NCBI RefSeq assembly: GCF_003177035.1
Contig: NZ_CP029488.1
Span: forward strand, 1-64,000
From: Salinisphaera sp. LB1
Lineage (GTDB): Bacteria > Pseudomonadota > Gammaproteobacteria > Nevskiales > Salinisphaeraceae
DNA length: 64,000 bases
Direction: 5' to 3'
Made by a program: the position numbers and the translations under genes. The notes under the pieces were generated by a model that saw only the letters and a list, made by a program, of their open reading frames with translations, ran no database searches and was not told the origin of the DNA. Shown here one piece after another: positions 10,749 to 61,251 of this stretch. The stretch's first letter is position 1. Each line of letters opens with the position of its first letter.

Positions 10749-11358
10749 TGGTGGTCAGCGCCTCCAGGTAGGGGCGGATCACGGTGCCGACCCCGCCAGT
10801 ATCCGCCGCCCTGGCGACCTCGGCCGGCGTCGCCTTGCGTTGACGCAGAGCTTCCTGCAGCCCTTCGAGCGCGACGGCGAGACCTATCTTGCCGCGATGC
10901 CGGAAGCAGTCGGCGACGGTCTTCGCCACGCCGAACACCTTCACCGACACGCCCTCGATCACATGCGTCTCGACGCTTTCGACGAGCAGATCATCCGAGA
11001 AACGCAGCACACGAATCGGCATATCGCTTGGCTTCGGCGTCCAGTCGTTCCGGCCGATTGCCATCCACACCTTTTTCGGTAGCTGATCCGTGATTCCATG
11101 AAAAGCGAGTGCCGATACGAGGCAGATCACGCCCTTGGGAAAACGCTTGGCCGCTTCGGCAAGGCTATGGTTTGTATCCAGCTCGGCATCGGGAAGCTGG
11201 TAGAGTCCGCGCGCCAGGCGGATCACCTCGCCATCCCTCTCCATACGACTGACCGTTGCGGCGGTCACTCCCGCTTCCCGGAGTTCCACAAGGCGCAGAA
11301 TCCCATGCGTCGCGAGGAGATCGCGGGCTATATCGCGCTGGGATCGCATCTGGGTCAT
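10741..11358 (-). CDS. abiEi: AbiEi-family transcriptional regulator / antitoxin
   Basis: 205-residue protein with an N-terminal winged-helix antitoxin domain (ILRLVELREAGVTAATVSRMERDGEVIRLARGLYQLP, residues about 20-57) and a C-terminal domain containing VKVFGVAKTVADCFRHRGKIG. AbiEi proteins repress their own promoter by binding inverted repeats and neutralise AbiEii without forming a stable complex. The gene overlaps abiEii by 8 bp. The upstream region has a CACAC/GTGTG inverted repeat (11372-11395) around a TATAGAT element that fits autoregulation. Confidence 0.9.
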   Translation of the reverse strand: MTQMRSQRDIARDLLATHGILRLVELREAGVTAATVSRMERDGEVIRLARGLYQLPDAELDTNHSLAEAAKRFPKGVICLVSALAFHGITDQLPKKVWMAIGRNDWTPKPSDMPIRVLRFSDDLLVESVETHVIEGVSVKVFGVAKTVADCFRHRGKIGLAVALEGLQEALRQRKATPAEVARAADTGGVGTVIRPYLEALTTNG

Positions 11359-11952: not shown

Positions 11953-13313
11953 GGCTCTTCTGCACTGACATGCGCTAGAGAGGGATGACTGCCGCCGACA
12001 AATCCGTTTCAATACAAGCTCCTACACAAATACAGAAGGGGTTTGTAGATGGCGGCAACCATCCCAAGTTGGATTGTTGGTCTGCGCGGGCAGTGCGTCA
12101 AGGGCGTGGCGTGGGACGAAGCTCGTGGCACGCTGGTGTTTCACTGCGACCGCGATCGCCGCTTCGTGCCGGTGGATCACCGGAGCGGCGCACGAGGCAC
12201 CGTCAATCGACGGCTGCGTCGCGAGGTTCAGGATCTGCCGATCTGGGGCCGCTCAGTGACGCTCTCGATCGCGTACTGTCAGCTCAAGATCGGGGCGACG
12301 GATCGCCGTATGGAACGGCTGTCGTTCGTCGAGCCCGGCCATGGCTTCACACGCCGCTATGCGCGGTTTGTCAGCCAACTGGCTCGGCATATCAGCATCG
12401 CCGCCGTCGCGGCTTACACCGGCCTGGCGTGGCGTACGGTCAAGGCTATGGACGAACGGGCGTTGACGCGTGATCTGCCGGCTCTGGATCCTGGCGCACT
12501 GACCGGCCTGCGGCATCTGGGCGTCGACGAGGTCGCCCGCGCCAAGGGCCATGATTATCTGACCATCGTCTACGACCTCGAGTCCGGCGATCTGGTATGG
12601 GTCACCGAGGGCCGTCGCAAGGCCGGCCTGACGGCGTTTTTCGATCAGCTCGATGAGCCCGTTGCCCAGGGCATCGAGGCCGTAGCCATGGATATGTGGA
12701 AGCCCTTTGAACAGGCGGTGGCCGAGGCGTTGCCGAACGCCGCCATCGTCTTCGATCGCTTCCATGTCATGCAGCAGTATTCGAAGGTGATCGATACCGT
12801 CCGCCGAACCGAGTTCAAGCGGGCAACCCACGCCGACAAGCAGGTCTTGGTTGGCAGCCGTTATCTGCTGCTCAAAAACGCCGAACGCTTGAGCGATAGC
12901 CAGGCCGCGCGACTCGATCGGTTGCTCGCCGTCAATGGCCCGCTCAACGCAGTCTATGCCTTGAAAGAACAGCTCCAGCAACTGTGGCACGCCCCAGCGA
13001 GCTTCACCGTCATGGGCCAGCGCCTGGATGCCTGGTGTGCCTTGGCCGAGGCCACCGGGCTGGCCCCCATGAAACGCTTCGTGGCGATGCTACAGCGGCA
13101 TCGCACCGGGATCTGCAACTACGCGGCCCACCCCATCACCACCGCCCGACTCGAAGGCGGCCACGTCGCGATCGGGTTGATCCGTAAACGCGCTCGCGGA
13201 CTGCTCGATACCGAATACTTCAAACTCAAAATCCGGCAAAGCGCAACGCCCGAACCACCCCTTGGCCTGTACGCTCTGACCGGATGATTGGCTCAAACCA
13301 TGTCACAAGAGCC
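11953..13313 (+). mobile_element. ISL3-family element, 1361 bp, complete with ACTGAATC duplication
   Basis: The ends are GGCTCTTCTGCACTGACATG on the left and its imperfect complement (GGCTCTTGTGACATGG read inward) on the right. A perfect 8-bp target duplication, ACTGAATC, lies at 11945-11952 and 13314-13321, as expected for ISL3 elements. A second copy of equal length with an identical transposase lies at 50988-52348. The perfect duplication and identity imply recent transposition. Confidence 0.96.
12049..13287 (+). CDS. ISL3-family transposase
   Basis: 412-residue DDE transposase of the ISL3 family. Landmarks are HLGVDEVARAKGHDYLTIVYDL near residue 160 (first Asp), AVAMDMWKPFEQAVAEALPNAAIVFDRFHVMQ near 225-250 (second acidic site and the FDRFHV signature), and the C-terminal LEGGHVAIGLIRKRARG with the catalytic Glu. 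The N-terminus normally carries a zinc ribbon in this family, but cysteines are sparse here. The start follows AGAAGGGG. It inserts its element with 8-bp duplications. Confidence 0.95.
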   Translation: MAATIPSWIVGLRGQCVKGVAWDEARGTLVFHCDRDRRFVPVDHRSGARGTVNRRLRREVQDLPIWGRSVTLSIAYCQLKIGATDRRMERLSFVEPGHGFTRRYARFVSQLARHISIAAVAAYTGLAWRTVKAMDERALTRDLPALDPGALTGLRHLGVDEVARAKGHDYLTIVYDLESGDLVWVTEGRRKAGLTAFFDQLDEPVAQGIEAVAMDMWKPFEQAVAEALPNAAIVFDRFHVMQQYSKVIDTVRRTEFKRATHADKQVLVGSRYLLLKNAERLSDSQAARLDRLLAVNGPLNAVYALKEQLQQLWHAPASFTVMGQRLDAWCALAEATGLAPMKRFVAMLQRHRTGICNYAAHPITTARLEGGHVAIGLIRKRARGLLDTEYFKLKIRQSATPEPPLGLYALTG

Positions 13314-36026: not shown

Positions 36027-39000
36027 CTACGCGGCATCCTGCGCTGAACGGGCATTGGCATTCACCGATCGAACGATATCGACCACGCGATCGGCTGCAT
36101 CGGTCGGGAACACGCCATCGAGCCCGGAATGATGCAGGCCGGTGAATGGCGGCTCGTACAATAAGCCGGGGTCGATCGTGCCGTTTTCGCGCAACTGTTC
36201 GATGATCATTTCGACGAAACGAATCTGTCGTTCGCCTAGATTTTCGGCGTTGATGAAGTCGGCGAACGCGGCCTGGGCGGCCGCGCGGTCCAGCCCCACC
36301 AGCGAGCGAATGAATACGGTGAGCGGCTGGTCCTCACCAAACGCTTCGCTGAACCGCTCGCGGCTTTCGACCTCATCCGCGCCAAACACGAACCGTTCGA
36401 GTTCCGCCAGATCGCTCGCGGTCAGGGGGCGGTTGTGCTTGAGCTTGGCAATTGCCACGTGATCTTCATTCGCACGAATGAAGGCCGCAACCTTTTTGCG
36501 ATACTGCGCCAGATTGATGCCGGTCTGGAAATCGTCGAGGCTTACGGCCTCGCCCTCGCCGATCTCGTCGTCGAGCGCTGAATAAACTGGGTTGAAGGCT
36601 TTCTTCTCGATGAACTGGATCAGTCCGCGCAGGCGCCGCCGCACGTTCTCGATCATCGGCAGCGTAATGTCTTCCCAGAACTCACTGGTCTGCACGTCGT
36701 GGATCAGGGCGAGCTGGGCTTTGACGGCCGGGATGTTCTGCGCGGATTCGAGACCAGAGGCCAGCGCCTGAATACGCTCAGTGAGCTTCTGTGTCTGCCC
36801 GGCATCGCCGTCGAGGCGTGCCACCTGCAGGTTCAGGCAGGTCAGATCGAACAGCCGGGCCGAGATATCCTCGTGCGGGCGCTCGCTCGGCAGGCCCGCG
36901 ACATGGTTGGCGAGCACGCCCTGGGCTTCGTCGTCCAGATTCGCCCAGGCCGCCGGATTCCGAAAGCGTTCCACATGTTCGCGCTGCGGGCGGACGATGA
37001 AGTTGGCGGTATTCATGGCCGCCACTTCGCTCTGTAGGGTCTGCTTCAACGCGCGACGCAATTCATCGTCATTGCCGAGATCGCCGTGAGGCGCACCCGC
37101 CTCGTCGCCGACGCCAGTGTCGTCCGATTCGACGTTCAGCCGTGTCAGAACTTCGAGGCGCTGCACAAACAGCCGCTTGTGCAACGGCTCGGCCGGCGCC
37201 GATTCGCGCAGCTCCGGGTTCTCGTTGAAGAACTCGAAGTTCTCGCAGTAATCGAAGATGACGAACTCGGCCTTGTCGTTGCCCGGCCCGAACAGATCCG
37301 GGCACAGCCGTGTACCGCGCCCGATCATCTGCAGGAATTTCACCTTCGAGCGCACGGGCTTGAAGAACACGAGATTGACCACCTCGGGCACGTCAATGCC
37401 GGTATCCAGCATGTCGACCGAGATCGCGATCTGGGGATAGGCGTTCGGTTTCTTGAAGTCCTCGATCAGAGATTCGGCGTATTTCTCGGCGTGCGTGATC
37501 TTGCGCGCGAAATGCCCGTTGTACTGCGGGTAGTTGGCATCGAAGCGCTCGGCGATGTATTTCGCATGGGCCTCGTTCCGAGCGAAGATGATAGTCTTGC
37601 CGACCGTATCGCCGCCATCGACCTGAATGCCCTGCGCCATCAGCCGCTGCAGCATCTTGTCGACCGTGTCCTCATTGAACAGGAACTTGTTGATCTGCGC
37701 GGCATCGACTTCGTCGGGGATCAGCACCTCGCCCGTTGCCTCGTCCACCGGCCATTCGAGCTGCTCGTAATGCTCGCGCTCCTCGGGCGTGAGATCGGCA
37801 TAGCGAACGCCCTGGCGCACCATCTTCAGCGGCACGCTCATCGCACGCGGCGGCACGAGATACCCGTCGGCGACGGCATCGTCGAGCGTGTAGGCATCGG
37901 TCGGCACGCCGGGCTCGAGATCGAACAAGTGATAGGTGTCGCGATGCACCTCGTCGCGCGGCGTCGCCGTCAGGCCCACCAGCAGACTGTCGAAATAATC
38001 GAAGATCGCGCCGTATTTCTGGTACACGCTGCGATGCGCTTCATCCACGATCACCAGATCGAAGAAGCCGACACCGAAACGGCGCGCCTCGCCGCCTTCC
38101 GCACCCTGCCCCTTGTCGATCAGATTCATCATCGTCGGGTAGGTGGAGACATGCACGCGCCCGTCGCTGTGCTTCTCGCGTACGAGATTGACGGTGGCGA
38201 CTTCCGGCAAATGCGCCTTGAACGCATTGCTGGCCTGGCGGACCAGTTCTTTGCGATCGGCCAGAAACAGCACCCGCTTGACCCAGTTCGCCCGCATGAG
38301 CAGATCAACCAACGCGATGGCCGTGCGCGTCTTGCCGGTGCCGGTGGCCATCGCCAGCAGGCCGCGCCGCTTGCCGGCGGTGAACGCATCGCAGAGCGCG
38401 GCAATCGCCCGCTGCTGATACGGCCGCTCGACGATGTCGCGCTTGACCGCATGCGTCGCCGGGTCGTCCGCCATGGTCCGGCGGCGCACCATCGTCGCCA
38501 GTTCCTCGCGCGTGAAAAACCCTTGCACCTGCCGCGGCGCGGCCCGGCAATCGTCCCACAGCCACGTCTGGTAGCCGTTGGTATAGAACATGACCGGCCG
38601 CTGGCCTTTCATCGCTTCCAGGCAATCGGCATAGAGCTTGGCCTGCTGGCGCCCGATCTCCGGGTCGGCCAGCGCCCGCTTGGCTTCGACCACCGCCAGC
38701 GGCTGGCCGTCTTCGCCCCAGAGCACATAGTCGGCGTAGCCGTCGCCCGTATTGCTCGGCATGCCGGTGAGCGGATATTCAGCGCTGGCATCCGCGCCGA
38801 CGGTCCAGCCGGCTTCGGCCAGCAGCACGTCGATGATCTGCTGGCGCGTGGCCAACTCGTCGTAATCGTGCGTATCCGGCACCGCGATGTTGCGCGCCTT
38901 GGCCTCGGCCAGCTCGGCGCGCACGCGCACCAGTTCGGCGTTCACGTCCGCCAGCGCGGCTTCCTGTTCGTCGAGATTCCGCGAACGCCGGGCAATCTCG

Positions 39001-39542
39001 GCCTCGCGCGCATCCAGATCGGCCCGCTCGGCGGCGAGCCTATCCGCGAACTGCTGTTCCTGTTTCTTCAGCTCATCGCGGGTAAAGGCGACCGCCTCGT
39101 CGCTGGCCACAAAGTACGGAATGCGCTGGGCATCGAACGTTGCTTCGATGGCCTTGGGGTCCGACGCCCGGGTATAGGTGCGCGCCAGCCAGAACAGCAC
39201 ATGAAACAGATCGCGACAGAGCTGCAACGCATCGCGCGTCCGCACGACACGGTTGGAGTGCACCGCCTGATTGCCCTGCTTCTGGATGAGCCGCGCCTTC
39301 TGGAGCACCGGCGGCGGCAGCAGCGCCTCGAACTCCGGCTGGCTCAGCAGCGCATGCAGGCCGCGATCATACGGCCGGCGCAGACTGCGATCATAGTCGT
39401 ACAACCAGTGCACTGCCCGTTCCAGCGCGAAGCGAATCCGCATGCAGGCGGCACGCGGATCAGAATGGGCCAGTTGCTCCGCATCGGCAGCCGGCTCGTA
39501 GAGCGAGGCGAATTCGGGGCGGAGGAACTGGAAGTTGGTCAT
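36027..39542 (-). CDS. hsdR: Type I restriction enzyme R subunit
   Basis: 1171-residue motor and nuclease subunit. Domains in order: a DUF4145-like helical N-terminus (residues about 1-130), a charged coiled coil (about 150-215), a PD-(D/E)xK nuclease (YADYVLWGEDGQPLAVVEAKRA near 270-290), Walker A (MATGTGKTRTAIAL) near 395, the DEAH box (DLVIVDEAHRSVY), motif III (LVGLTATP), and a C-terminal helicase domain (MIGRGTRLCPDLFG) plus a HsdM/S-binding tail. It cuts unmodified DNA far from the site after ATP-driven translocation, but only with HsdM and HsdS. ATG lies 2 bp after the hsdS stop. It is intact here. Confidence 0.96.
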   Translation of the reverse strand: MTNFQFLRPEFASLYEPAADAEQLAHSDPRAACMRIRFALERAVHWLYDYDRSLRRPYDRGLHALLSQPEFEALLPPPVLQKARLIQKQGNQAVHSNRVVRTRDALQLCRDLFHVLFWLARTYTRASDPKAIEATFDAQRIPYFVASDEAVAFTRDELKKQEQQFADRLAAERADLDAREAEIARRSRNLDEQEAALADVNAELVRVRAELAEAKARNIAVPDTHDYDELATRQQIIDVLLAEAGWTVGADASAEYPLTGMPSNTGDGYADYVLWGEDGQPLAVVEAKRALADPEIGRQQAKLYADCLEAMKGQRPVMFYTNGYQTWLWDDCRAAPRQVQGFFTREELATMVRRRTMADDPATHAVKRDIVERPYQQRAIAALCDAFTAGKRRGLLAMATGTGKTRTAIALVDLLMRANWVKRVLFLADRKELVRQASNAFKAHLPEVATVNLVREKHSDGRVHVSTYPTMMNLIDKGQGAEGGEARRFGVGFFDLVIVDEAHRSVYQKYGAIFDYFDSLLVGLTATPRDEVHRDTYHLFDLEPGVPTDAYTLDDAVADGYLVPPRAMSVPLKMVRQGVRYADLTPEEREHYEQLEWPVDEATGEVLIPDEVDAAQINKFLFNEDTVDKMLQRLMAQGIQVDGGDTVGKTIIFARNEAHAKYIAERFDANYPQYNGHFARKITHAEKYAESLIEDFKKPNAYPQIAISVDMLDTGIDVPEVVNLVFFKPVRSKVKFLQMIGRGTRLCPDLFGPGNDKAEFVIFDYCENFEFFNENPELRESAPAEPLHKRLFVQRLEVLTRLNVESDDTGVGDEAGAPHGDLGNDDELRRALKQTLQSEVAAMNTANFIVRPQREHVERFRNPAAWANLDDEAQGVLANHVAGLPSERPHEDISARLFDLTCLNLQVARLDGDAGQTQKLTERIQALASGLESAQNIPAVKAQLALIHDVQTSEFWEDITLPMIENVRRRLRGLIQFIEKKAFNPVYSALDDEIGEGEAVSLDDFQTGINLAQYRKKVAAFIRANEDHVAIAKLKHNRPLTASDLAELERFVFGADEVESRERFSEAFGEDQPLTVFIRSLVGLDRAAAQAAFADFINAENLGERQIRFVEMIIEQLRENGTIDPGLLYEPPFTGLHHSGLDGVFPTDAADRVVDIVRSVNANARSAQDAA

Positions 39543-43609: not shown

Positions 43610-44037
43610 ATGGCCCCCGTGTACGTGTGCGGGCCCAATATGCCCGATCGGCACCGGATTAATCGAGAGCGGGATACCATCGGCCCGTCACGGATGTTGA
43701 CTAGTCAGTGAAGCAACCAACGTCACAAACAAGCCTCAGACTGTTTTCTCTGCTGTGCGGCGCACCGCGTTCGCGCCCCTGTTTGCAAACAGCCTGCGGT
43801 GGCGCGCGCTATTGTTGTTGCGCTGAATGAGCAAAGGCGCTCTCAACCGGGCATCCAAGCCCCAAAAAATGATCTTGCCAACCTCGTATTTCCGGTAGCA
43901 AACTGACCGCTTAACCGTCGCTCACCTTTCAACGCCAAAATGCGGCAACCCGAGCCGCACACGGCGACCGTTTTGCCGTGCTCGGGCTATCGTTGACGGG
44001 TTATATGGCGACGCATCAATCCTTGGGGGAGGACTTG
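43610..44037. promoter_or_regulatory. Divergent promoter region between hsdM and zorA, with a 14-bp palindrome
   Basis: CTGTTTGCAAACAG at 43779-43792 is a perfect palindrome about midway between the two outward starts, and is a candidate operator for one or both defence units. I see no regulator gene next to it. The zorA start is preceded by GGGGGAGG at 44026-44033. Confidence 0.45.
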
Positions 44038-45768
44038 ATGGATATATTGTCTGCTTGGCTGAGCGTGGCGGGGGTGCTGACTTCCAGCTATATGACCGCA
44101 TCCGTTGTTGTGGCCATCCTGCTGATCACTTTGGGGATCGGCCTATGGTTCAAGCTCCAACTGCGCCCGGTCATGCGCGATCTGCGCCAGGCGTCACGCC
44201 TGGTTGAAGGCGTGCCTGAAGACGAAGCCGCGTTCGCGGCCGAGTTTCACAGCATTAAAGAGAAGCTCTCCGATAACCGGACTCTGGGCCACGCGTGGCG
44301 CGAGTTCGGGGAAGTGCTGATCTACGATGCCTGGTCGGGAGACAGCGGCATACGGAACGCCCAATCACCGGGTGACTACTTCTATCTCGGCAGTGTTACT
44401 TCGAACCGCATCAACCTTCGGTTTTTCAATACATTTCCGAATATTCTCACTGGCCTGGGGATTCTAGGCACGTTCGTCGGGCTTGCCGCCGGCATATCGC
44501 TGGCCAGCCATGGGCTGGGCTCGGACGACCCGGTGAAGATGCAGGCCGCTCTACAGCAACTGCTAAGCGGCGCTTCGCTGGCGTTTTTTACGTCGATTGC
44601 GGGTATGGTCTGTTCGATCGTCCTGAACCTGTACGAGAAGGGGCGAATCCATCGGCTGGATGGCGCGGTGCAGCGCTTCGTGGATGCGCTGGATGCCCGA
44701 CTCAAGCGTGTAACCGTCGAAAGCCTGGCAAACGATCAGCTAGAGGAAAGCAAGGAACAGACGCAGGCACTTAAAGTCTTTTCCAACGATCTCGCCTTCC
44801 AGATTGCCGACGCTCTCAGCGAAAAATTCAGCGCGAATCTCGGTCCCACGCTGGAAAAACTCGTGGACGCCGTCGAAGGAATGCGCGATCAACGCAAGGA
44901 CGACACGACTGAAATGCTCGAGCGCATGCTCAAGGAGTTTCAGACATCCCTAAGCGGCGCGGCGGGCCAGGAGCTATCCTCACTCGGCCATACACTCGAA
45001 TTACTCAACGAAAAACTGACCAGCCAGATCTCAACCATCGGATCCCAACAGGCCACACTGCAATCACAGCACGAACAATCGCTCGATAATCTTCGATCGA
45101 CTTTGGCCACCAGCCGGGAGTCGTTCAACACAGAAGTCGGCCGTGCGCTGAAAACGCTGAGCGATACCTTGGGCACATCTGTCGAAGAGGTGGCGCGCGA
45201 ACTCCGCAGCGCCGGTGAGGATGCCGGAACGCGCCTGACCGAAATGACGACACGGCTGTCCGAAACGGTCGAGCAGATCAATACGACCATTCAGTCGTCG
45301 GCCGAAGCGGCAGAGCAGCACCGTCAAATATCCGAGCACAACCGCGAAACGCTGGATTCGATGCGCGCAGCCGGCGAACACTTCGGCCAATTGGCCGAGC
45401 CCGTGGCCCGTTCGGCGAGCGCCATCGAAGAAAGCGCATCAGCCATCAAAGACACGGCTACATCGTTCATTTCCGTACACGACGGTATCCATGAGTCGGT
45501 CAGTCGCATCGAAGCGATTCAGACCCAGCTCGGCGAGGCATGGTCCCGATACGAGCAACGCTTTGAATCAGTTGACGAGAGCCTCGCCAGCGTATTCGAA
45601 GAGCTGCATGACGGATTGTCGCAATACACCTCGAGCTTGAACGGCTACGTGAAGGACCTGGATAAACATACCTCGAGCATCACGTCGGATCTGGCCGGTG
45701 CTGTTGGCGAATTGAATGAAATGCTGGAGGGGCTCGAGGAGACGCTCTCGAGCGAACGAGTGGCCTGA
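44038..45768 (+). CDS. zorA: Zorya defence protein ZorA (MotA/ExbB-like with long coiled-coil tail)
   Basis: 576 residues with ATG at 44038 behind GGGGGAGG. An N-terminal helix (MTASVVVAILLITLGIGLWF) is followed by a pore-forming MotA/ExbB-like region (FNTFPNILTGLGILGTFVGLAAGISLA near 132-160 and LLSGASLAFFTSIAGMVCSIVLNLYEKGR near 178-206), then about 370 residues of predicted coiled coil (repeated TLSDTLG, LSETVEQIN, ESASAIKDTATSF). In Zorya, ZorA pentamers surround ZorB to form a proton-driven inner-membrane motor that senses phage infection, with the tail reaching into the cytoplasm. zorB overlaps the stop as TGATG. Confidence 0.93.
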   Translation: MDILSAWLSVAGVLTSSYMTASVVVAILLITLGIGLWFKLQLRPVMRDLRQASRLVEGVPEDEAAFAAEFHSIKEKLSDNRTLGHAWREFGEVLIYDAWSGDSGIRNAQSPGDYFYLGSVTSNRINLRFFNTFPNILTGLGILGTFVGLAAGISLASHGLGSDDPVKMQAALQQLLSGASLAFFTSIAGMVCSIVLNLYEKGRIHRLDGAVQRFVDALDARLKRVTVESLANDQLEESKEQTQALKVFSNDLAFQIADALSEKFSANLGPTLEKLVDAVEGMRDQRKDDTTEMLERMLKEFQTSLSGAAGQELSSLGHTLELLNEKLTSQISTIGSQQATLQSQHEQSLDNLRSTLATSRESFNTEVGRALKTLSDTLGTSVEEVARELRSAGEDAGTRLTEMTTRLSETVEQINTTIQSSAEAAEQHRQISEHNRETLDSMRAAGEHFGQLAEPVARSASAIEESASAIKDTATSFISVHDGIHESVSRIEAIQTQLGEAWSRYEQRFESVDESLASVFEELHDGLSQYTSSLNGYVKDLDKHTSSITSDLAGAVGELNEMLEGLEETLSSERVA

Positions 45769-46535
45769 TGCGACGCCCCGACAGAGATTTTTTTGCAGAC
45801 GAAGACGCCGGCTACCTCGTATCCGTCAGCGACATCATGGCCGGGCTGCTATTCATATTCATTATCACGCTTGTCGTGTTCGTGACCCAGTTCAAGCAAG
45901 CAAAGCATGAACAGCAGGCACAGGTCGAGAAGCTGACGAACAACGACGCGGTTCGCTCGACGTTACTGCAGCACATTCAATCGCAACTGGCCGATCGCGG
46001 CATCCCCGTCACCTTGAATGCTGATTCGGGGGTATTGATTCTCGGCGAGGATGCGGTGCCGTTCCAGCTGGGTGACCGCGATCCGACAGACATGGGTCAG
46101 ATCCATCTGAAAACGATTGCGTCGGTTCTTGGCGAGATCATTCCCTGCTACGCATCGAACCCGCCCGCAACTTTGAAGTGCGATCCGGACAAAAAGGGCA
46201 AGCTGGATTCCATATTCATCGAAGGCCACACGGATAGTCGCCCGATCCAGCGGCCGGGCTATACCAACTGGAATCTATCCTCCGATCGCGCCATCGCGAG
46301 CTTTCAGATCATGAAAGCTGCTCAGCCGACGATATCCGGACTCGACAATTCGATTGATCAACCGCTGTTCAGTGTATCCGGCTATGCCGCGGAGCGGCCT
46401 CGAGCCGATCGCCCTGATTGGTCCAGCGACGATCCGAGGCAACGTCGAATCGAATTGCGATTCATCATGACGCCGCCTGAGCATACCGGCGACGTCCAAC
46501 CCAAGCGCGATATGGAGGCGGCCGGCGTGCGATGA
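45768..46535 (+). CDS. zorB: Zorya defence protein ZorB (MotB-like, OmpA domain)
   Basis: 255 residues. A cytoplasmic start is followed by one transmembrane helix (SVSDIMAGLLFIFIITLVVFVTQF) whose Asp22 corresponds to the ion-carrying Asp of MotB-type stators. Then comes a periplasmic OmpA-like peptidoglycan-binding domain: FIEGHTDSRPIQ...NWNLSSDRAIASFQIM and RQRRIELRFIM. ZorB dimers sit in the ZorA ring. zorC starts four bases before its stop (ATGA). All expected features are present. Confidence 0.93.
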   Translation: MRRPDRDFFADEDAGYLVSVSDIMAGLLFIFIITLVVFVTQFKQAKHEQQAQVEKLTNNDAVRSTLLQHIQSQLADRGIPVTLNADSGVLILGEDAVPFQLGDRDPTDMGQIHLKTIASVLGEIIPCYASNPPATLKCDPDKKGKLDSIFIEGHTDSRPIQRPGYTNWNLSSDRAIASFQIMKAAQPTISGLDNSIDQPLFSVSGYAAERPRADRPDWSSDDPRQRRIELRFIMTPPEHTGDVQPKRDMEAAGVR

Positions 46536-47995
46536 GTGACGCGGCGTTCCGGCCAGCATTAAAGCGAGCCCTGCAATTGATGGAATGGCCCGCGATCTTT
46601 GCGCAACCTCGGCAACCAAAGAGACTCGAGGCGGCACAGGCGGCGATCAAGCGCCAGCTTGGCGATGTCACACCGCGGCAGCCGAATCAATACGATCTGT
46701 TGGAAACTTATCGAACGCTCGCCTCGCTCGACAAGGATAAACCCGACATCAGGGGCCTGGCGCGGCGCCATGTCCGGCGAGCGCCGTGGGTGCTATTTCG
46801 AAAGTGGTCTGAGGGAGAAAGTCCGCTCGCGTTGCGCAAACGCCTGCTATCGGCCTACTACGACTATCTCGCGCGCAGCGGTTCCGATCGCACGATCGGA
46901 GCGCTGGTGCATGTTTTTCTCCGCGACCATCCAACCGACGCCGGCGTACAAGAAAGCACACGCCAGCTGCTGAATAGCGAATTAGCGCAACGCAAGTCTC
47001 CTCGTTTACAACGCCTGCGCGAACGCTGTGCCGCATATTCACTGCTCGAAGCCGATGGCCCGACTCGATTCGCCACTATGCTGGATGCGGCTACGGCTAC
47101 GGGCTCTGAAGATCTGCTCGCAGACGCTGGTCTGATCGGTGATCTTGGGCTGCAGGGCTTTATTGTAGCCGCGGCCGAACGATGGCTCGATCAAATATCG
47201 GATACGTTGGAGTCGCGAGCGGCGACGTACGACGGCGCACCGTACATTGAACGCGTGTTCGCGTTCTTTCGCAGTACAGACAACCGCGACGCGCTGCGTT
47301 TTCCGCCACTTCGGGCGCGATTGGCGGATGCCTTGCTTCTACCGTTCGTCAGTAACAACCCGCCGAAATCGATACAGAACAAACTTCAGCATTTTCTGAT
47401 CGATACGCTGGGCGATCCGCGGCCGAGACCGGGACAGTGGCACGGCGTCGACCCGGCTGCCAAGGCGGTGTTACTCCGCTGGTTGGTGCATACGACACTC
47501 AAGGATTTCTTCCGGATTGTCAGTGATGCGAGTCAACATGACGCGAACGCGGACCGCATGTGGCCCTACCGAAACGCCTTCTGGAGCGCGTACCTCAACA
47601 AAGGGGTGATCGAGAACGCCTGGGTGGTGTTGGGATCTGAGGTACGTAAAACAGCCCAAACGCGGCTAAGCCAGATTGATCGTGGTAGCTATGGGGAACT
47701 CATGTCCGGCGGCGGCGCACAGCCGAGTCATGCTGTTCTAATCATGCAGATCGGCGATCTGGTGATTACCGAGTGGAGTCACAGTGGAAAGTATCGAATC
47801 TGGCACCTCGACAGCCCGAATGCCCCGCCGTTCTATCGCCGCTCTTATAGCCGGGGCCGGCTCGTCCGCGAGCCTGAACTCGATGGCTCGCATCATCATG
47901 CCGAAGGGGGCTCCTGGCAGCGTCGGTTGGCAGACGAAATTCGTGACTGGACCGGCATAACGGTCACCCAGCGGGAGTTCATGCCTCGTGACTAG
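46532..47995 (+). CDS. zorC: Zorya type I protein ZorC (EH-signature domain)
   Basis: 487 residues, largely alpha-helical, cytoplasmic. The EH signature lies near residue 410 (MQIGDLVITEWSHSGKYRIWHLD), with the Glu and His that name the domain. The N-terminus carries many Arg/Lys helices (RLEAAQAAIKRQLGD, RRHVRRAPWVLFRKW). In type I Zorya, ZorC binds DNA and acts with ZorD downstream of the ZorAB motor. The start overlaps zorB and the end overlaps zorD by 8 bp, so the four genes are one translational unit. Confidence 0.9.
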   Translation: MSDAAFRPALKRALQLMEWPAIFAQPRQPKRLEAAQAAIKRQLGDVTPRQPNQYDLLETYRTLASLDKDKPDIRGLARRHVRRAPWVLFRKWSEGESPLALRKRLLSAYYDYLARSGSDRTIGALVHVFLRDHPTDAGVQESTRQLLNSELAQRKSPRLQRLRERCAAYSLLEADGPTRFATMLDAATATGSEDLLADAGLIGDLGLQGFIVAAAERWLDQISDTLESRAATYDGAPYIERVFAFFRSTDNRDALRFPPLRARLADALLLPFVSNNPPKSIQNKLQHFLIDTLGDPRPRPGQWHGVDPAAKAVLLRWLVHTTLKDFFRIVSDASQHDANADRMWPYRNAFWSAYLNKGVIENAWVVLGSEVRKTAQTRLSQIDRGSYGELMSGGGAQPSHAVLIMQIGDLVITEWSHSGKYRIWHLDSPNAPPFYRRSYSRGRLVREPELDGSHHHAEGGSWQRRLADEIRDWTGITVTQREFMPRD

Positions 47996-50957
47996 CACGC
48001 TCGAATGGTCCTGTAGCGACGCCGGCATTCGGTTTACCCTAAGCTCGGCTGATGGCCCGGTTCCCGTTTCTCTCTGGGCACGCGCCGATCCGCTCACGGT
48101 CGAGGGACAAAAGGCGAACGTCGCCCCACTCACGGCTACAATTGAGCGGACCGTTACGGATAAAAGGGACGCGGAGGAGGTAACCGTAAGCCACGACGAG
48201 ATCGAAGCGCTGGGTGAAGCACAGCTAGCGCAGCTTGGCTTGCCGACGGCCGCCCCGCTCAGAATTCGTCTGCGAGGCCGAGGCGTCCTCACCACCGGCG
48301 ATTTTCGCTTTGAGTATCAGCTGGTGCGCCATAACGGACAGCCTCTCATGGGAGTTCGACGTACCGGAGCGATCATGCATGCGGGGCGTGAGCGACACAC
48401 GCTTCTCTATCCTCTTCACTCGATACTCAGCGAGATCGACGCCTTCAACGAGACCGCCGAATCTGCCGATGCTGAAAAGCGGCTTTTCCACTGGGCACGT
48501 CTCAAGGAGCTGCTACCCGAATCAGCCGAAGTGGACGGCCAACTGCGTACAATCAATGTCGTACGCGCCGATGCATTCACGCTGGATGCCAATTCCCGCG
48601 GCGAGATCGAGCCGATCCTGCGACACCGTCGTTCACAAGATCCGCGTTATCAGGTCGATGGCGGCGACGCCATGGATTCGGACGAGAACGCCGCGTTCGA
48701 ACCCGCCTTGCCGCCAGCCTCGCAAAAGAGCTTCGCCGAGCGCTTTCAGAGTGCATCGCGGGTCTCGCGACGCTATGTCACGCGCGATAACTGGTATATC
48801 GCGCTGCCGCCTGCCGTGGAACGGGCGTTGGAAGTCGTCAAGGACTACCAGCAGCGATCGCGTGGCGAACGCCTGGCTTTCATTGCCAATCCAAGGCGGT
48901 TTATCGCAGACGAACTCGGCGACGACGTATCGGCGGATCTACTGAATGAGATATTCGAGGAAACCCCCGAATTTCTGAGTCAGCGCGTCCGGTGCCTTGG
49001 CGAATGGCAGCCGAAGACGTTCGCCTACAGTTTGCCAAGTAAGAACGACTGGTTTCCCGACGAAGGTGCCTCGGGTGGGGTTCTGGTCGACTTCGGTAAC
49101 CAGCTTATTCCTGTATCAACTGCCGACGCGGAGCCTTTGCGGGCTCGTATGCAAGAAGCTCTCGATGCGGGCGCAGTGGAAATCGAGCATGGCGAATACC
49201 GCATACCAGTCTCCGAGGAGAGCCTGGAGCGAATCAAGGCCGCCACCGCCAAATATGAGGACACGGCCAGCGGTATTGGTCCGGAAGATGGCCCGTCGAA
49301 GCAGTCAGAATCCTCCGCCGATAGCTATTCACACGAAGAAACCGGCGGAACACAGCCCGAACCCGAACAAGATGCTCGAGTTCCTTTAATTGAAGACAAT
49401 CTCGAGGCCGTTGGATTTGACCATCGCCCACATCCCAAACGCGGCGAGCCGGGCGGATTACCCGCCGTTCTTCAGACGACCTCGCTCTATCCCCATCAGA
49501 AAGATGGCCTGCGGTGGCTTCAAGAGCACTGGGCCTGCGGCTCGAACGGCGCACTACTCGCGGACGATATGGGCCTCGGAAAAACACTGCAGACGCTCGT
49601 CTTTCTAGCCTGGGTACAGGAACAAAACGAACGGCGTACAGCCAGCCTCCCTTTTCTCGTCGTCGCCCCCACAGGTCTGCTGAAGAACTGGGAGGATGAG
49701 GAAAAGCGCCACCTCGCCCGTCCTGGGCTTGGCGAGCTTTGTTTCGCCTATGGCACGCGATTGAAAGAAATCGCTCAACTCCACAAACACGAGCGCAAAG
49801 AATTGTTTGCGCGTGCCGGCTGGGTCATGACGACCTACGAAACACTGCGCGACAAGATTCTCTTATTCGCCGATGTTCGTTGGGGGATCGCGGCATTTGA
49901 TGAAGTACAGAAGATCAAAAATCCGGTGTCGCTCACCCACGAAATGGCAAAGTCGGTGCACGCCGATTTCTTTCTAGCGTTAACCGGTACACCAGTCGAA
50001 AACCGTGTTTCCGACCTTTGGTCGGTCATTGATACTATAGCGCCGGGCCAGCTTCGCAGCTTGAAAGAGTTTCAGTCCCGTTACGAGACCGAAGTCAACA
50101 AGAGCGAGCCGGAAGTTGCTGCCAACCGAGTGGCCGAACTACGTGAGGCACTGCTGGAAAAATATCCGCCACCTCGTATTCTCAGGCGGATGAAAGAACA
50201 GCAGCTGACGGGGCTGCCTGCAAAGCATGTACACCCTCTCAAGGAGTCGATGCCAACGGAGCAGGCGGCAGCTTATGAGCATGTACTACAAACACTTCGT
50301 TCCAACGCTGAAAGGCGTTCAAGCGCGCTCATCGCCTTGCAAAATCTGCGAAAAGTAAGCTTGTCCCCGGACGATGTGACAAACGATGGACTCGACGACA
50401 ACACGATCAGACGGTCAGCCCGGCTCAATGCCACGGTTCGCGAGTTAGATCGAATTCGCGCGGCCGGTGAGAAAGCTCTCGTTTTCCTAGAATATCGAGC
50501 CTTTCAGGATCATTTGCTGGCCTTCTTGCAACGGCGTTACGACATGGAACGGCCTCCCAGCCGAATTAACGGCCAGACGACGGCCGCAAGGCGCAAGAAG
50601 ATTGTCGACGAGTTTCAAGCATCCCCTGAAAGCGAATTCAATGTGATAGTCCTCTCGCCCAAGGCTGCTGGTGTCGGACTGACACTTACTGCCGCGAACC
50701 ACGTCATTCATCTATCGCGATGGTGGAACCCGGCAGTCGAGGACCAGTGTACCGACCGCGTCTTTCGCATTGGCCAGAGCAAGCCGGTGCACGTCTATTA
50801 CCCTATGGCGATTCATCCAAGTTATCCGCAAACAAGCTTCGACACGAACCTAGACGCCTTACTTGAACGTAAGCGTTCTCTGAGCAGCGGACTGCTGACC
50901 CCAGCTGACGCCAGCAAGAAGGATCTGAACGACCTTCTTTCTCGAAGTCTCGGCTAA
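47988..50957 (+). CDS. zorD: Zorya type I protein ZorD (SNF2-like helicase/nuclease)
   Basis: 989 residues, GTG start inside the end of zorC (VTSTLEWSCSDAGIRF). The C-terminal half is a SNF2/Swi2 ATPase: LLADDMGLGKTLQTLVFL near residue 525 (Walker A), FDEVQKIKNP near 640 (DExx box), FLALTGTPVENRVSDLWSV near 665, and the second lobe with LSPKAAGVGLTLTAANHVIHLSRWWNPAVEDQCTDRVFRIGQ near 890-930. The N-terminal half is family-specific, with an acidic linker near 430-465. ZorD is the effector that degrades or remodels invading DNA. It is complete and has no frameshift. Confidence 0.92.
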   Translation: MTSTLEWSCSDAGIRFTLSSADGPVPVSLWARADPLTVEGQKANVAPLTATIERTVTDKRDAEEVTVSHDEIEALGEAQLAQLGLPTAAPLRIRLRGRGVLTTGDFRFEYQLVRHNGQPLMGVRRTGAIMHAGRERHTLLYPLHSILSEIDAFNETAESADAEKRLFHWARLKELLPESAEVDGQLRTINVVRADAFTLDANSRGEIEPILRHRRSQDPRYQVDGGDAMDSDENAAFEPALPPASQKSFAERFQSASRVSRRYVTRDNWYIALPPAVERALEVVKDYQQRSRGERLAFIANPRRFIADELGDDVSADLLNEIFEETPEFLSQRVRCLGEWQPKTFAYSLPSKNDWFPDEGASGGVLVDFGNQLIPVSTADAEPLRARMQEALDAGAVEIEHGEYRIPVSEESLERIKAATAKYEDTASGIGPEDGPSKQSESSADSYSHEETGGTQPEPEQDARVPLIEDNLEAVGFDHRPHPKRGEPGGLPAVLQTTSLYPHQKDGLRWLQEHWACGSNGALLADDMGLGKTLQTLVFLAWVQEQNERRTASLPFLVVAPTGLLKNWEDEEKRHLARPGLGELCFAYGTRLKEIAQLHKHERKELFARAGWVMTTYETLRDKILLFADVRWGIAAFDEVQKIKNPVSLTHEMAKSVHADFFLALTGTPVENRVSDLWSVIDTIAPGQLRSLKEFQSRYETEVNKSEPEVAANRVAELREALLEKYPPPRILRRMKEQQLTGLPAKHVHPLKESMPTEQAAAYEHVLQTLRSNAERRSSALIALQNLRKVSLSPDDVTNDGLDDNTIRRSARLNATVRELDRIRAAGEKALVFLEYRAFQDHLLAFLQRRYDMERPPSRINGQTTAARRKKIVDEFQASPESEFNVIVLSPKAAGVGLTLTAANHVIHLSRWWNPAVEDQCTDRVFRIGQSKPVHVYYPMAIHPSYPQTSFDTNLDALLERKRSLSSGLLTPADASKKDLNDLLSRSLG

Positions 50958-50987: not shown

Positions 50988-52348
50988 GGCTCTTCTGCAC
51001 TGACATGCGCTAGAGAGGGATGACTGCCGCCGACAAATCCGTTTCAATACAAGCTCCTACACAAATACAGAAGGGGTTTGTAGATGGCGGCAACCATCCC
51101 AAGTTGGATTGTTGGTCTGCGCGGGCAGTGCGTCAAGGGCGTGGCGTGGGACGAAGCTCGTGGCACGCTGGTGTTTCACTGCGACCGCGATCGCCGCTTC
51201 GTGCCGGTGGATCACCGGAGCGGCGCACGAGGCACCGTCAATCGACGGCTGCGTCGCGAGGTTCAGGATCTGCCGATCTGGGGCCGCTCAGTGACGCTCT
51301 CGATCGCGTACTGTCAGCTCAAGATCGGGGCGACGGATCGCCGTATGGAACGGCTGTCGTTCGTCGAGCCCGGCCATGGCTTCACACGCCGCTATGCGCG
51401 GTTTGTCAGCCAACTGGCTCGGCATATCAGCATCGCCGCCGTCGCGGCTTACACCGGCCTGGCGTGGCGTACGGTCAAGGCTATGGACGAACGGGCGTTG
51501 ACGCGTGATCTGCCGGCTCTGGATCCTGGCGCACTGACCGGCCTGCGGCATCTGGGCGTCGACGAGGTCGCCCGCGCCAAGGGCCATGATTATCTGACCA
51601 TCGTCTACGACCTCGAGTCCGGCGATCTGGTATGGGTCACCGAGGGCCGTCGCAAGGCCGGCCTGACGGCGTTTTTCGATCAGCTCGATGAGCCCGTTGC
51701 CCAGGGCATCGAGGCCGTAGCCATGGATATGTGGAAGCCCTTTGAACAGGCGGTGGCCGAGGCGTTGCCGAACGCCGCCATCGTCTTCGATCGCTTCCAT
51801 GTCATGCAGCAGTATTCGAAGGTGATCGATACCGTCCGCCGAACCGAGTTCAAGCGGGCAACCCACGCCGACAAGCAGGTCTTGGTTGGCAGCCGTTATC
51901 TGCTGCTCAAAAACGCCGAACGCTTGAGCGATAGCCAGGCCGCGCGACTCGATCGGTTGCTCGCCGTCAATGGCCCGCTCAACGCAGTCTATGCCTTGAA
52001 AGAACAGCTCCAGCAACTGTGGCACGCCCCAGCGAGCTTCACCGTCATGGGCCAGCGCCTGGATGCCTGGTGTGCCTTGGCCGAGGCCACCGGGCTGGCC
52101 CCCATGAAACGCTTCGTGGCGATGCTACAGCGGCATCGCACCGGGATCTGCAACTACGCGGCCCACCCCATCACCACCGCCCGACTCGAAGGCGGCCACG
52201 TCGCGATCGGGTTGATCCGTAAACGCGCTCGCGGACTGCTCGATACCGAATACTTCAAACTCAAAATCCGGCAAAGCGCAACGCCCGAACCACCCCTTGG
52301 CCTGTACGCTCTGACCGGATGATTGGCTCAAACCATGTCACAAGAGCC
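50988..52348 (+). mobile_element. ISL3-family element, second copy, with CATATCCT duplication
   Basis: Same 1361 bp and ends as the copy at 11953-13313, flanked by the perfect 8-bp repeat CATATCCT at 50980-50987 and 52349-52356. It sits 30 bp after zorD and spared that gene. Confidence 0.96.
51084..52322 (+). CDS. ISL3-family transposase, second copy
   Basis: 412-residue protein identical in sequence to the one encoded at 12049-13287, with the same DDE landmarks (GVDEVARAKGHDY, FDRFHVMQQYSK, RLEGGHVAIGLIRKRA). Intact and presumably active. Confidence 0.95.
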   Translation: MAATIPSWIVGLRGQCVKGVAWDEARGTLVFHCDRDRRFVPVDHRSGARGTVNRRLRREVQDLPIWGRSVTLSIAYCQLKIGATDRRMERLSFVEPGHGFTRRYARFVSQLARHISIAAVAAYTGLAWRTVKAMDERALTRDLPALDPGALTGLRHLGVDEVARAKGHDYLTIVYDLESGDLVWVTEGRRKAGLTAFFDQLDEPVAQGIEAVAMDMWKPFEQAVAEALPNAAIVFDRFHVMQQYSKVIDTVRRTEFKRATHADKQVLVGSRYLLLKNAERLSDSQAARLDRLLAVNGPLNAVYALKEQLQQLWHAPASFTVMGQRLDAWCALAEATGLAPMKRFVAMLQRHRTGICNYAAHPITTARLEGGHVAIGLIRKRARGLLDTEYFKLKIRQSATPEPPLGLYALTG

Positions 52349-56944: not shown

Positions 56945-57433
56945 TCAGGGCTGGCATACGTCGTCCAAATAGCGGCGAACAAAACACAAGTCGTCGATAT
57001 AGCCTCGCCGCATGACCTCGAGCGCCGAGCGGCCCTCGAAACCCGGTGCGGTATGGGGACGCTTGATCCAACGATCCGCCTGCGCCTCATCGGAAAACAG
57101 GCGGTGCAAGGTGGTGTCGATGCCAAGCAGGTAACGGACGCGGTAGATTTGATCGGGCGTAAGTTCAGCATCCACACCCTCGGAAGCGGCCAGTTGATCC
57201 CGCCAATGTTGGACCCGGGCCACCGGCAGTCCACCCAGCAGGGTGGCCAGTTCGTCGTCCGAGAGTTGCCATCGCCGGCTCATCCGAAACACGGCCTTGA
57301 CCGCTGTGGCGGATTCTCGCCCGCGCTGTTCTTCTTCGTTCTCACGATCCTTGCGACGCAGGCGGTCGGAGTTAAACGCCATGAATAGAAGAAACGCTTC
57401 TACGAGAACGGCGAGAATGATCGCATCGGTCAT
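56945..57433 (-). CDS. Membrane-anchored protein with MbcA/ParS/Xre-type toxin-binding domain (DUF2384)
   Basis: 162 residues, ATG at 57433 behind GGAGGG. An N-terminal transmembrane helix (DAIILAVLVEAFLLFMAF, residues 3-20) and a charged linker precede the domain. Its antitoxin-like features are MSRRWQLSDDELATLLGG, VRYLLGIDTTLHRLF and the ending FEGRSALEVMRRGYIDDLCFVRRYLDDV, typical of DUF2384. Classical members pair with RES-domain toxins, but no RES gene lies beside it and a membrane anchor is unusual. It may be an orphan or have another role. Confidence 0.72.
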   Translation of the reverse strand: MTDAIILAVLVEAFLLFMAFNSDRLRRKDRENEEEQRGRESATAVKAVFRMSRRWQLSDDELATLLGGLPVARVQHWRDQLAASEGVDAELTPDQIYRVRYLLGIDTTLHRLFSDEAQADRWIKRPHTAPGFEGRSALEVMRRGYIDDLCFVRRYLDDVCQP

Positions 57434-57445
57434 CGGTCCCTCCAC

Positions 57446-58747: not shown

Positions 58748-59251
58748 TTAACGCGCCTCCCGCGGCTCCTTTGCCTCCCCCAAAGCCTGGCGTGCCTCGT
58801 CGCGCTCAGCACGGACGGCCCTCAGGTCGCTCCGGAGCGCCGCGATTGTGTGGTCCCGGGCTTCAAGGAGCGCCTCCAGCGCGGTCACCTGGGCAGCTAC
58901 GGTGCGGTTGCGCGCCTCGCCCAGTGAGGTCTCCAGCTCGGATATTCGCTGCTGGACACCATCCAACTCGCGCGCCAGCCGCTCAATCTCGATCGCGTCG
59001 CCTCCCTCGGCGGACTCGTCGGGGGCTTCCTGGGCGGCGGCCGACAGATCATCGGATGACCGAGGCGCGGGCCGCTCGACCGGGGGCTGCGCGTCTCGCC
59101 AAGTCTTTAGATGGCGGTGAACGATGGTTGATGTGCCGGGAGGCAAGCCGGCGCGATCAAGCACCCTGGCCACTATCGGCAGTTTGCCGTCGGCGGACAA
59201 CGCATCGGCTGTCGCCTTCACCTCGGCATATGTCACTGTGCTTCTGGGCAT
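58748..59251 (-). CDS. KfrA-like DNA-binding coiled-coil protein
   Basis: 167 residues. The N-terminal KfrA-type helix-turn-helix (VTYAEVKATADALSADGKLPIVARVLDRAGLPPGTSTIVHRHLKTWRD, residues about 6-52) is followed by a linker and a long coiled coil (IEIERLARELDGVQQRISELETSLGEARNRTVAAQV...). KfrA proteins are plasmid-encoded autorepressors thought to aid plasmid maintenance. The start ATG is preceded by GGAGG, which is inside one arm of a perfect inverted repeat, consistent with autorepression. At 167 residues it is shorter than classical KfrA. Confidence 0.8.
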   Translation of the reverse strand: MPRSTVTYAEVKATADALSADGKLPIVARVLDRAGLPPGTSTIVHRHLKTWRDAQPPVERPAPRSSDDLSAAAQEAPDESAEGGDAIEIERLARELDGVQQRISELETSLGEARNRTVAAQVTALEALLEARDHTIAALRSDLRAVRAERDEARQALGEAKEPREAR

Positions 59252-60077: not shown

Positions 60078-60761
60078 TTACGCGCTCAGGGGCTCGACGA
60101 TCTCCGGGCCGTCGTTTGCCGGGTTACCCACCCTCTTTCCGATCGGCCACGCCCGATAGCTCGCGTAGCGTTCATTTGCGAGGACCTCTTTGGTCTGGTC
60201 GATATCGCAATCCGGATCGAGCCAGTGGCGGGCGCCCTCGGCGGTCAAGGCCTGGGGCTGCCGATCATGGATATAGTCGATGTCATCGTTCGGCGGCCCC
60301 GTGAGGATCGCGAACGTCACCTGGCCGGCGGCCGGATGGTGTTCGGGGAGATGTGAGGCTTTCGACCACAGCCCTGCGAAGAAGAAGGGCTGCCCGTCCT
60401 TCGGCCGGATCACGTACGGCTGCTTCGTGTCGCCCTGCTTCTGCCACTCGATCCAGTAGTCAGCCGGTACAAGACAGCGTTGATGTTTGAACACCTTCCC
60501 GAACAGCTTGTTGCGGTTCGCCGTCTCCGAGCGCGCATTGATCGGCGAGCGCTTCGTATCCGTCGCCCAGTTCGGAATGAAGCCCCACCAAGCCGGGCCG
60601 AGCGTCAACGCACCGCTATCCGGGTTCTGGAGCATAACAGCCTGGAGCGTGTCGGGCGGACGGTTGTAGCGCACGTCATCGTCGAGCCGGTCGGAGATCT
60701 CGGCATCGACGATTTTCGCGAAGACGTCCGCCGCACTATACCGACCGTATCGTCCACACAT
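60078..60761 (-). CDS. SRAP-domain protein (HMCES/YedK family)
   Basis: 227 residues. It starts with the catalytic MCGRYGRYS; Cys2 forms a covalent link with abasic sites in single-stranded DNA. Other family residues are present: NARSETANRN, LVPADYWIEWQ with its Glu, and HDRQPQAL with the active His where many members have HDRMP. It protects abasic sites at replication forks. It lies 55 bp after a zinc-ribbon gene that has a LexA box, so SOS induction of both is likely. Such genes are frequent on mobile elements. Confidence 0.93.
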   Translation of the reverse strand: MCGRYGRYSAADVFAKIVDAEISDRLDDDVRYNRPPDTLQAVMLQNPDSGALTLGPAWWGFIPNWATDTKRSPINARSETANRNKLFGKVFKHQRCLVPADYWIEWQKQGDTKQPYVIRPKDGQPFFFAGLWSKASHLPEHHPAAGQVTFAILTGPPNDDIDYIHDRQPQALTAEGARHWLDPDCDIDQTKEVLANERYASYRAWPIGKRVGNPANDGPEIVEPLSA

Positions 60762-60815
60762 ACCGTCTCAGGATACTTAATGAGTGTCTGCCTCCATCAT
60801 AAACGCGCGGCGACG

Positions 60816-61223
60816 TTACGCATCGCGACCGCTAAAAACCTTCACCTTGTAGCTCGCCATCTTGGCGTCATGGCGACAACCCGCACAATCGAAATCGAAC
60901 GAGTCACCCACGCGCACCATGCGCGGGTTGCGTGAGCCACACAGCGGACACCCCTCCTCGATCGCCTGGAGATCCGGGTGGCGATAGCGCGCCTCGATAC
61001 GATCCGCGATATCGCGATAGGCGCGAACCAGGGCACCCATCAGTTGTACGGTGCTGCGGCCCGATACATAGGGCCCCGCATTACGCCAGGCCCCGTCGAC
61101 CTTTTTCTCGAGCCGCATCCGGCGCTCACTTTCGCACGCATCAACACGCCACTCGTGCAAGCGGAGATCCTCTGATAAGGGCCAGTAGCGATCGGGCGGC
61201 GATTGTCCGGGATTCGGCGGCAT
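60816..61223 (-). CDS. Zinc-ribbon protein of unknown function under a LexA box
   Basis: 135 residues from ATG at 61223 (MPPNPGQSPPDRYWPLSEDLRLHEW). The C-terminal zinc ribbon is GCPLCGSRNPRMVRVGDSFDFDCAGCRHDAKM with four cysteines. The middle is helical (LMGALVRAYRDIADRIEARYR). I do not recognise the family. An in-frame extension upstream to 61397 crosses the LexA box and is unlikely. Co-transcription with the SRAP gene 55 bp downstream and SOS control suggest a role in the DNA damage response. Confidence 0.7.
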   Translation of the reverse strand: MPPNPGQSPPDRYWPLSEDLRLHEWRVDACESERRMRLEKKVDGAWRNAGPYVSGRSTVQLMGALVRAYRDIADRIEARYRHPDLQAIEEGCPLCGSRNPRMVRVGDSFDFDCAGCRHDAKMASYKVKVFSGRDA

Positions 61224-61235
61224 GCGCCGATCGTA

Positions 61236-61251
61236 CTGTATATTATTACAG
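61236..61251 (-). promoter_or_regulatory. LexA (SOS) box
   Basis: CTGTATATTATTACAG has the perfect CTGT-N8-ACAG core of the enterobacterial LexA site, with an AT-rich spacer. It ends 12 bp upstream of the zinc-ribbon gene start, a repressing position. Confidence 0.85.

Follow-up and report, generated by a model that had tools for sequence, protein, structure and literature searches.

A LexA-boxed zinc-ribbon gene of Salinisphaera with a prophage member and a loose linkage to SRAP genes

A LexA box that stands before a small zinc-ribbon gene, itself followed by a SRAP gene, raises the question of which of the two genes the box belongs to, and whether their products work together. This arrangement is found in Salinisphaera sp. 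LB1, within the stretch of 64,000 nucleotides analysed here (hereafter, the window). The LexA box, CTGTATATTATTACAG, occupies positions 61236-61251, has no strand of its own and reads CTGTAATAATATACAG on the minus strand, which is that of the genes; both half-sites are perfect. A spacer of 12 bp (61224..61235, minus strand), with no obvious Shine-Dalgarno sequence by eye, separates it from the ATG of a gene for a protein of 135 aa (60816-61223, minus strand), predicted to comprise a β4-α N-terminal domain (residues 12-80) and a C-terminal zinc ribbon (CPLCG...CAGC). Both this gene and its product are referred to as ZR. From the ZR stop codon, 54 bp (60762..60815, minus strand) lead to the ATG of the SRAP gene (227 aa, 60078-60761, minus strand), recognised by its match to PF02586 and by its active-site residues. 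A sequence-only reading of this DNA had placed a zinc-ribbon gene 12 bp after a near-ideal LexA box and a SRAP gene close behind it, and all of these elements were confirmed, the latter with a PF02586 E-value of 1e-51.

The window SRAP covers the whole PF02586 profile (1-214 of 214; 175.9 bits, cut-off 27.1), and shares with the SRAP/YedK/HMCES proteins the full-length domain as well as Cys2, Asn75, Glu105 and the catalytic His, which corresponds to His165 as assigned by the IHDR motif. The roles of the YedK active-site residues, as given in the available portion of PMC9436759, were used as the reference. As a full-length member of this family, the window SRAP is predicted to cross-link to abasic single-stranded DNA (ssDNA). 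A simple scan of the 54-bp gap revealed no terminator-like or promoter-like site, which makes co-transcription of the two genes plausible. SRAP is thus probably on the same putative transcript as ZR, and would thereby be brought into the SOS response. The length of the spacer upstream of ZR and its lack of an obvious Shine-Dalgarno sequence suggest a ZR mRNA with a very short leader or none, and a scan with the tool's own consensus gave no sigma-70-like promoter in the vicinity of the window box. Two other genes near the pair encode a plasmid-type DNA-binding protein with a KfrA_N domain (58748-59251, minus strand) and an antitoxin of the Xre/MbcA/ParS type (56945-57445, minus strand).

ZR has been found in four of the 17 genomes of the family and four of the 85 of the order, all of them from Salinisphaera, including S. 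japonica, S. shabanensis and Salinisphaera sp. NP40. These genomes hold six copies: that of the window, a second one in the LB1 genome (G000:C1:3818287-3818664) that lies in a prophage, and those on contigs G005:C45, G008:C16, G012:C32 and G012:C37, the last of which is frameshifted. A scan of the genome contigs with a ZR alignment recovered four loci, all in Salinisphaera, and an earlier scan of the genome contigs had returned nothing. In wider samples, for which the 10 or 11 best candidates were scored per genome, ZR was present in 3 of 369 genomes of the class, again all Salinisphaera, and in 1 of 398 genomes of the phylum, which is that of LB1 itself. Relatives were found neither in plasmids nor in phages or viral contigs, and no ZR gene or Salinisphaera ZR-SRAP pair appeared among the matches listed from the open literature. 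There is also a weak partial relative with a CPGCG motif (G005:C23:37329-37508, equal to L036:1501-1680, minus strand; E 1.2e-4), with no LexA box and no plasmid match.

Counted on its own, the window box is not significant. The pattern CTGT-N8-ACAG occurs once in the 64-kb window, at 61236-61251, where 0.35 sites are expected, and at least one site arose in 31 of 100 shuffles of the window. The LB1 genome (4.14 Mb) contains 19 such sites versus 25 for the reversed control pattern, so most of them are due to chance. Both counts would fit an ordinary accessory gene that has an accidental LexA-like site and a common neighbour in SRAP, and it is the conservation of the box that lifts it beyond chance. 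In all six copies of ZR the pattern ends 8-14 bp before an ATG, and this ATG opens the conserved MPNPG-like start of the protein. The half-sites are identical among the copies, although the preceding 50 bp show only chance-level identity (mean 28%, range 16-38%, across the 15 pairs of the six copies); some pairs also resemble each other in the few bases that separate the box from the ATG, as in the case of TACGATCG, found in three copies. As a control, 3000 in-frame ATGs followed by 100 codons or more were inspected in 452 kb of Salinisphaera DNA, taken mostly around ZR and SRAP loci and hence not a random sample. A box within 40 bp was found for seven of them, which are the starts of the five intact copies of ZR, of imuA in G007 and of one prophage ORF. 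Such rarity at control starts, together with six conserved boxes whose upstream flanks are at chance identity, makes an accidental site highly improbable.

The context in which the pattern is found in the LB1 genome also argues that it is a valid LexA motif there. Apart from the two sites followed by ZR genes, CTGT-N8-ACAG stands directly before imuA (with imuB next), recN and a PA0069 radical-SAM gene, and lexA, which is present in this genome, has a one-mismatch box, CTGTAAATATATCCAG, at its start codon. LexA specificity is inferred from the imuA, recN and lexA sites, which have the same type of box as ZR; unlike them, ZR is an accessory gene, carried by the four family genomes mentioned above. 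SOS control of the zinc-ribbon gene, as proposed by the sequence-only reading, is well supported at the level of DNA sequence by the presence of the box in six of six copies.

The comparison with SRAP genes that have no ZR beside them indicates to which of the two genes the box belongs. Eight intact SRAPs of this kind are known in the genus, of which two are identical as proteins and two nearly so, and none has CTGT-N8-ACAG in the 1.5 kb upstream, while two have it downstream of the gene. Outside the genus, nine SRAPs of phages and plasmids were hand-picked from the matches listed (30 of 51 phage records and 30 of 1722 plasmid records; a tenth, from Gifsy-2, was dropped), and, in contrast to the window SRAP, which lies downstream of a LexA-boxed gene, all nine lack an AT-rich box, whether exact or with one mismatch, in the 300 bp upstream. 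These results rule out that the box is the control element of SRAP itself, and, since it accompanies every copy of ZR and is absent at the eight ZR-less SRAPs, it belongs to ZR. A degraded SRAP gene (L076:8034-8506, on G007:C132) was also observed about 0.6 kb from an imuA gene with the LexA box CTGTATATAAATACAG.

The recurrence of the pair elsewhere had been set as a test by the sequence-only reading, and the pair does recur, as a SRAP gene lies within 2.3 kb of ZR in five of the six copies. In the window, SRAP is directly downstream of ZR in an operon-like manner. In G012:C32 the two genes are divergent, and the 65 bp that separate their start codons contain one LexA box; in the three remaining cases other genes separate them, over distances of 1.2 kb (G008), 1.5 kb (G012:C37) and 2.2 kb (G005). 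With one operon-like, one divergent and three spaced arrangements, the ZR box can serve only two of the five linked SRAPs.

This repeated company could reflect a dedicated partnership, in which ZR would bind ssDNA or SRAP itself and direct SRAP to abasic sites during the SOS response. For five of six copies to be so close to a SRAP, the probability would be about 3e-12 if placement were uniform and each genome had two SRAPs, and for four of five it would be about 8e-6 if everything were confined to a tenth of the genome, both figures being rough. SRAP, which is encoded in 8 of the 14 genomes of the genus, is present in four of four genomes with ZR versus 4 of 10 others (Fisher p 0.07). The single box shared by the divergent genes of G012:C32 also points in this direction, as does the fact that ssDNA might be the substrate of both proteins. 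Nevertheless, the history of the two genes argues against it. In a SRAP tree of 12 rows, two of them identical, the ZR-linked SRAPs do not form a clade, the four intact ones requiring 4 label changes versus a mean of 3.6 after shuffling, which rules out that ZR and SRAP are inherited as one unit. ZR and SRAP identities in the four intact pairs likewise disagree (r = -0.77, from six values that are not independent of each other); the frameshifted pair of G012:C37 was left out of both comparisons. Moreover, the order of the genes changes among loci, the prophage copy of ZR has no adjacent SRAP, and eight intact SRAPs do without ZR. The proposal that the zinc ribbon is a partner of SRAP thus stands as regards their repeated company, and falters on the varying order, the lack of a shared history and the prophage copy. 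The linkage is real and loose, ZR and SRAP meeting repeatedly; a working partnership is a possibility that we consider unlikely.

The company that SRAP keeps in other elements offers a different reason for these encounters. According to the available text of PMC3765255, SRAPs in SOS neighbourhoods and in temperate phages were already described in 2013, and SRAPs of temperate phages are also reported in the part of PMC8424206 that was accessible. Among the six phage records examined and kept here, five have an integrase gene within 1.3 kb of SRAP. This proximity suggests that both genes may be drawn from a pool of accessory genes located near the attachment-site ends of prophages, and ZR and SRAP would then meet frequently because they share this pool, rather than because they need to act as one complex. 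A known precedent for the pair is that of the SRAP-Ku neighbourhoods, in which, as described in 2013 in the accessible portion of PMC3765255, SRAP has Ku and two predicted Zn-ribbon proteins as neighbours. Judged by that description, these neighbourhoods resemble the window in the small Zn-ribbon protein encoded next to SRAP, and differ from it in that no Ku was found among the ORFs near ZR that were run against Pfam.

The second ZR copy of the LB1 genome is located in a prophage. This element of 35.4 kb (G000:C1:3817972-3853410; L013, L014, L102) resides in a tRNA-Leu(CAG) gene, and its ends are defined by a 19-bp repeat of the tRNA-Leu 3' end, which recurs 35.4 kb away, at 3853392. A full-length tyrosine integrase gene (PF00589) adjoins the far repeat, and genes for the terminase TerL, the portal and the tail tip lie between the two repeats. 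ZR is found within the element, some 0.3 kb from its tRNA end, in the opposite direction to the tail genes. As far as searched, the sequences robustly define an unnamed, genus-restricted family of LexA-boxed genes with a prophage member.

The site of the prophage copy brings to mind a phage regulator, which as a late activator similar to Ogr of P2, or as an antirepressor, would steer induction during the SOS response. The ogr gene of P2 is reportedly located between the tail genes and the attachment site, just as ZR is in this prophage, and a LexA-type box before ZR would suit such a function. Against it, ZR has no match to an Ogr/Delta profile in Pfam or PHROGs at E up to 1, and it also occurs in G005 and G008, at sites where none of the neighbouring ORFs inspected is a phage gene. 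On balance, a role of this kind appears distinctly improbable.

Other copies of ZR are found in small islands with variable content. In G008 and G012:C37 (L009, L011), a gene of 177 or 171 aa, ZR, cargo and SRAP follow each other in this order, in a block with tRNA-Pro(CGG) on one side and a hemerythrin gene with pilB on the other. Thirteen genomes were compared at this site. The gap between the tRNA and the hemerythrin gene measures 3.2 and 3.5 kb in the two that bear the block; in seven genomes the site is nearly empty (92-168 bp), two have 1.1 kb there, and the remaining two have no hemerythrin gene at this position. The ZR and SRAP sides of the two blocks align at 78-82% DNA identity, while no blastn match was obtained between the cargo that they enclose, so the cargo at this tRNA-Pro site has changed. 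In one block it includes a candidate defence gene of the DUF2971 type with a PADLOC match to PDC-S31; the other, in which both ZR and SRAP are frameshifted, has an SNase-like gene among its cargo. In G005, the genes between ZR and SRAP include one for a SocA/Panacea antitoxin. No convincing attachment repeat was found by the tRNAs of G005, G008 and G012:C37, and the ZR copies of the window and G012:C32 have no tRNA gene nearby that the search could find, so that for all of these copies an origin from phages is conjectural.

The window also contains a Zorya type I-like operon (43978-50957, plus strand), with genes for ZorA, ZorB, a ZorC-like EH_Signature protein and an SNF2 ZorD, and a gene for a protein similar to the R subunit of type I restriction systems (HsdR-like), with a DUF4145 N-terminus (36027-39542, minus strand). 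These defence genes are 10-25 kb away from the window ZR, and the ParS-type antitoxin gene is nearer. Farther off there is a gene for a 982-aa AAA_21 ATPase, a possible defence gene (6874-9822, minus strand), adjoined by two more ORFs (9879-10748 and 10741-11358). In addition, two ORFs of 412 aa (12049-13287 and 51084-52322, plus strand) have companion ORFs that are also equal in length; the one at 51084-52322 is an ISL3 transposase gene, and that at 12049-13287 looks like another copy of it.

Regarding the protein itself, ZR has cysteines at positions 30, 92, 95, 113 and 116, and the last four, which form two CxxC pairs, do not vary among the five intact copies. Two conserved CxxC pairs are the criterion of a zinc ribbon, and binding of zinc is predicted on this basis. 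The description of ZR as a zinc-ribbon protein of unknown family has held, as no Pfam family scored above its curated cut-off, and no match was obtained in NCBIfam or PHROGs at E up to 1, nor in PADLOC at E up to 0.01. The sub-threshold Pfam matches (DUF7560, Zn_ribbon_IS1595, DUF951 and DUF7351; E 0.004-0.07) mostly touch the ribbon.

AlphaFold (AF2) models of ZR, built from four sequences, show four strands and a long helix (58-80), followed by the zinc ribbon. Each run gave five models, of which no more than one or two are confident: the mean pLDDT values are 76, 75, 50, 48 and 45 for the whole protein and 86, 61, 60, 55 and 52 for the N-terminal domain (residues 1-86). In a Foldseek search of the PDB with this domain, the five best matches were all MoSub1, a member of the PC4 family (E 0.014-0.081), with MRP1/MRP2, which we take to be PC4-like as well, and Pur-alpha lower in the list, among unrelated folds; no match reached an E-value of 0.001 or better. 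VIA gave Z scores of 3.7-4.3 for PC4 entries and of about 4 for PUR entries, level with unrelated folds, and a structure search in BFVD yielded nothing below E 0.024. For both ZR models, the top VIA row was an inhibitory subunit of methane monooxygenase, with Z scores of 6.3 and 6.2, which, being below 8, are not read as kinship. At weak scores, then, the ZR model shares its succession of four strands and a helix with the ssDNA binders PC4/Sub1, Whirly and PUR. The PUR domains are described as PC4-like in the consulted portion of PMC7990775. No PC4 family matched ZR in Pfam at E up to 1, and no PC4 chain did so in a PDB sequence search at the same threshold; consequently, ZR is not filed as a member of PC4, and is considered only possibly PC4-like in its fold. 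A PC4-like nucleic-acid binder is the leading hypothesis that the models suggest for ZR, and is not presented as a result. The available part of the review PMC7990775 states that PC4-like proteins carry no other types of domain, so that, should the fold be borne out, a zinc ribbon fused to it would be an unusual combination.

A PC4-like fold combined with this genomic setting recalls AcrIIA22. As reported in the available text of PMC8545432, this clostridial protein of 54 aa is PC4-like, and its gene is found close to the junctions of prophage and host as well as in small hypervariable islands, which are regarded as remnants of incomplete prophage excision. It represents the nearest parallel to the life style of ZR, which is likewise found at a prophage end and in islands with changing neighbours. 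By analogy with AcrIIA22, which alters DNA topology and so protects the DNA of a phage or plasmid, SOS-induced ZR might act in counter-defence, and the similar setting as well as the candidate-defence genes in the cargo next to ZR would agree with this role. The proteins themselves are less alike, since AcrIIA22 is much shorter than ZR, with its 135 aa and its zinc ribbon, LexA control is not mentioned in the portion of PMC8545432 available, and the PDB sequence search gave no sequence link between them. Nor did a CRISPR or defence target come to light in this analysis. Counter-defence is regarded as improbable.

The reading that we favour, with a probability of roughly 0.5, is that ZR is a LexA-repressed, nucleic-acid-binding accessory gene of a temperate phage and of small, variable, mostly tRNA-adjacent islands of Salinisphaera. 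Its LexA box, the conservation of this box, the position of one copy in a prophage, the different cargo at the tRNA-Pro site and the loose linkage to SRAP are direct observations, and the remaining steps can be outlined as follows. DNA damage would activate RecA, LexA would be cleaved and, as the box implies, the ZR promoter would open, giving rise to an mRNA with a very short leader. Its product would be a small nucleic-acid-binding protein made of a PC4-like β4-α domain and a zinc ribbon, which, if the weak fold match is correct, may bind ssDNA at damaged forks or during the replication of an induced phage. In the window, SRAP would be expressed from the same putative transcript, so that the shielding of abasic sites would be induced together with ZR. 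A more specific version, in which ZR would represent a new family of SOS-induced ssDNA protectors with a PC4-like domain plus a zinc ribbon, and SRAP would have been repeatedly recruited to seal abasic sites, seems doubtful.

If the favoured reading is true, an unnamed family of LexA-controlled mobile genes would be added to the SOS response, and there would be a testable reason for the presence of SRAP abasic-site shields in prophages and islands. In this case the LexA box goes with the small neighbour rather than with SRAP, which sharpens what 'SOS-associated' means for SRAP.
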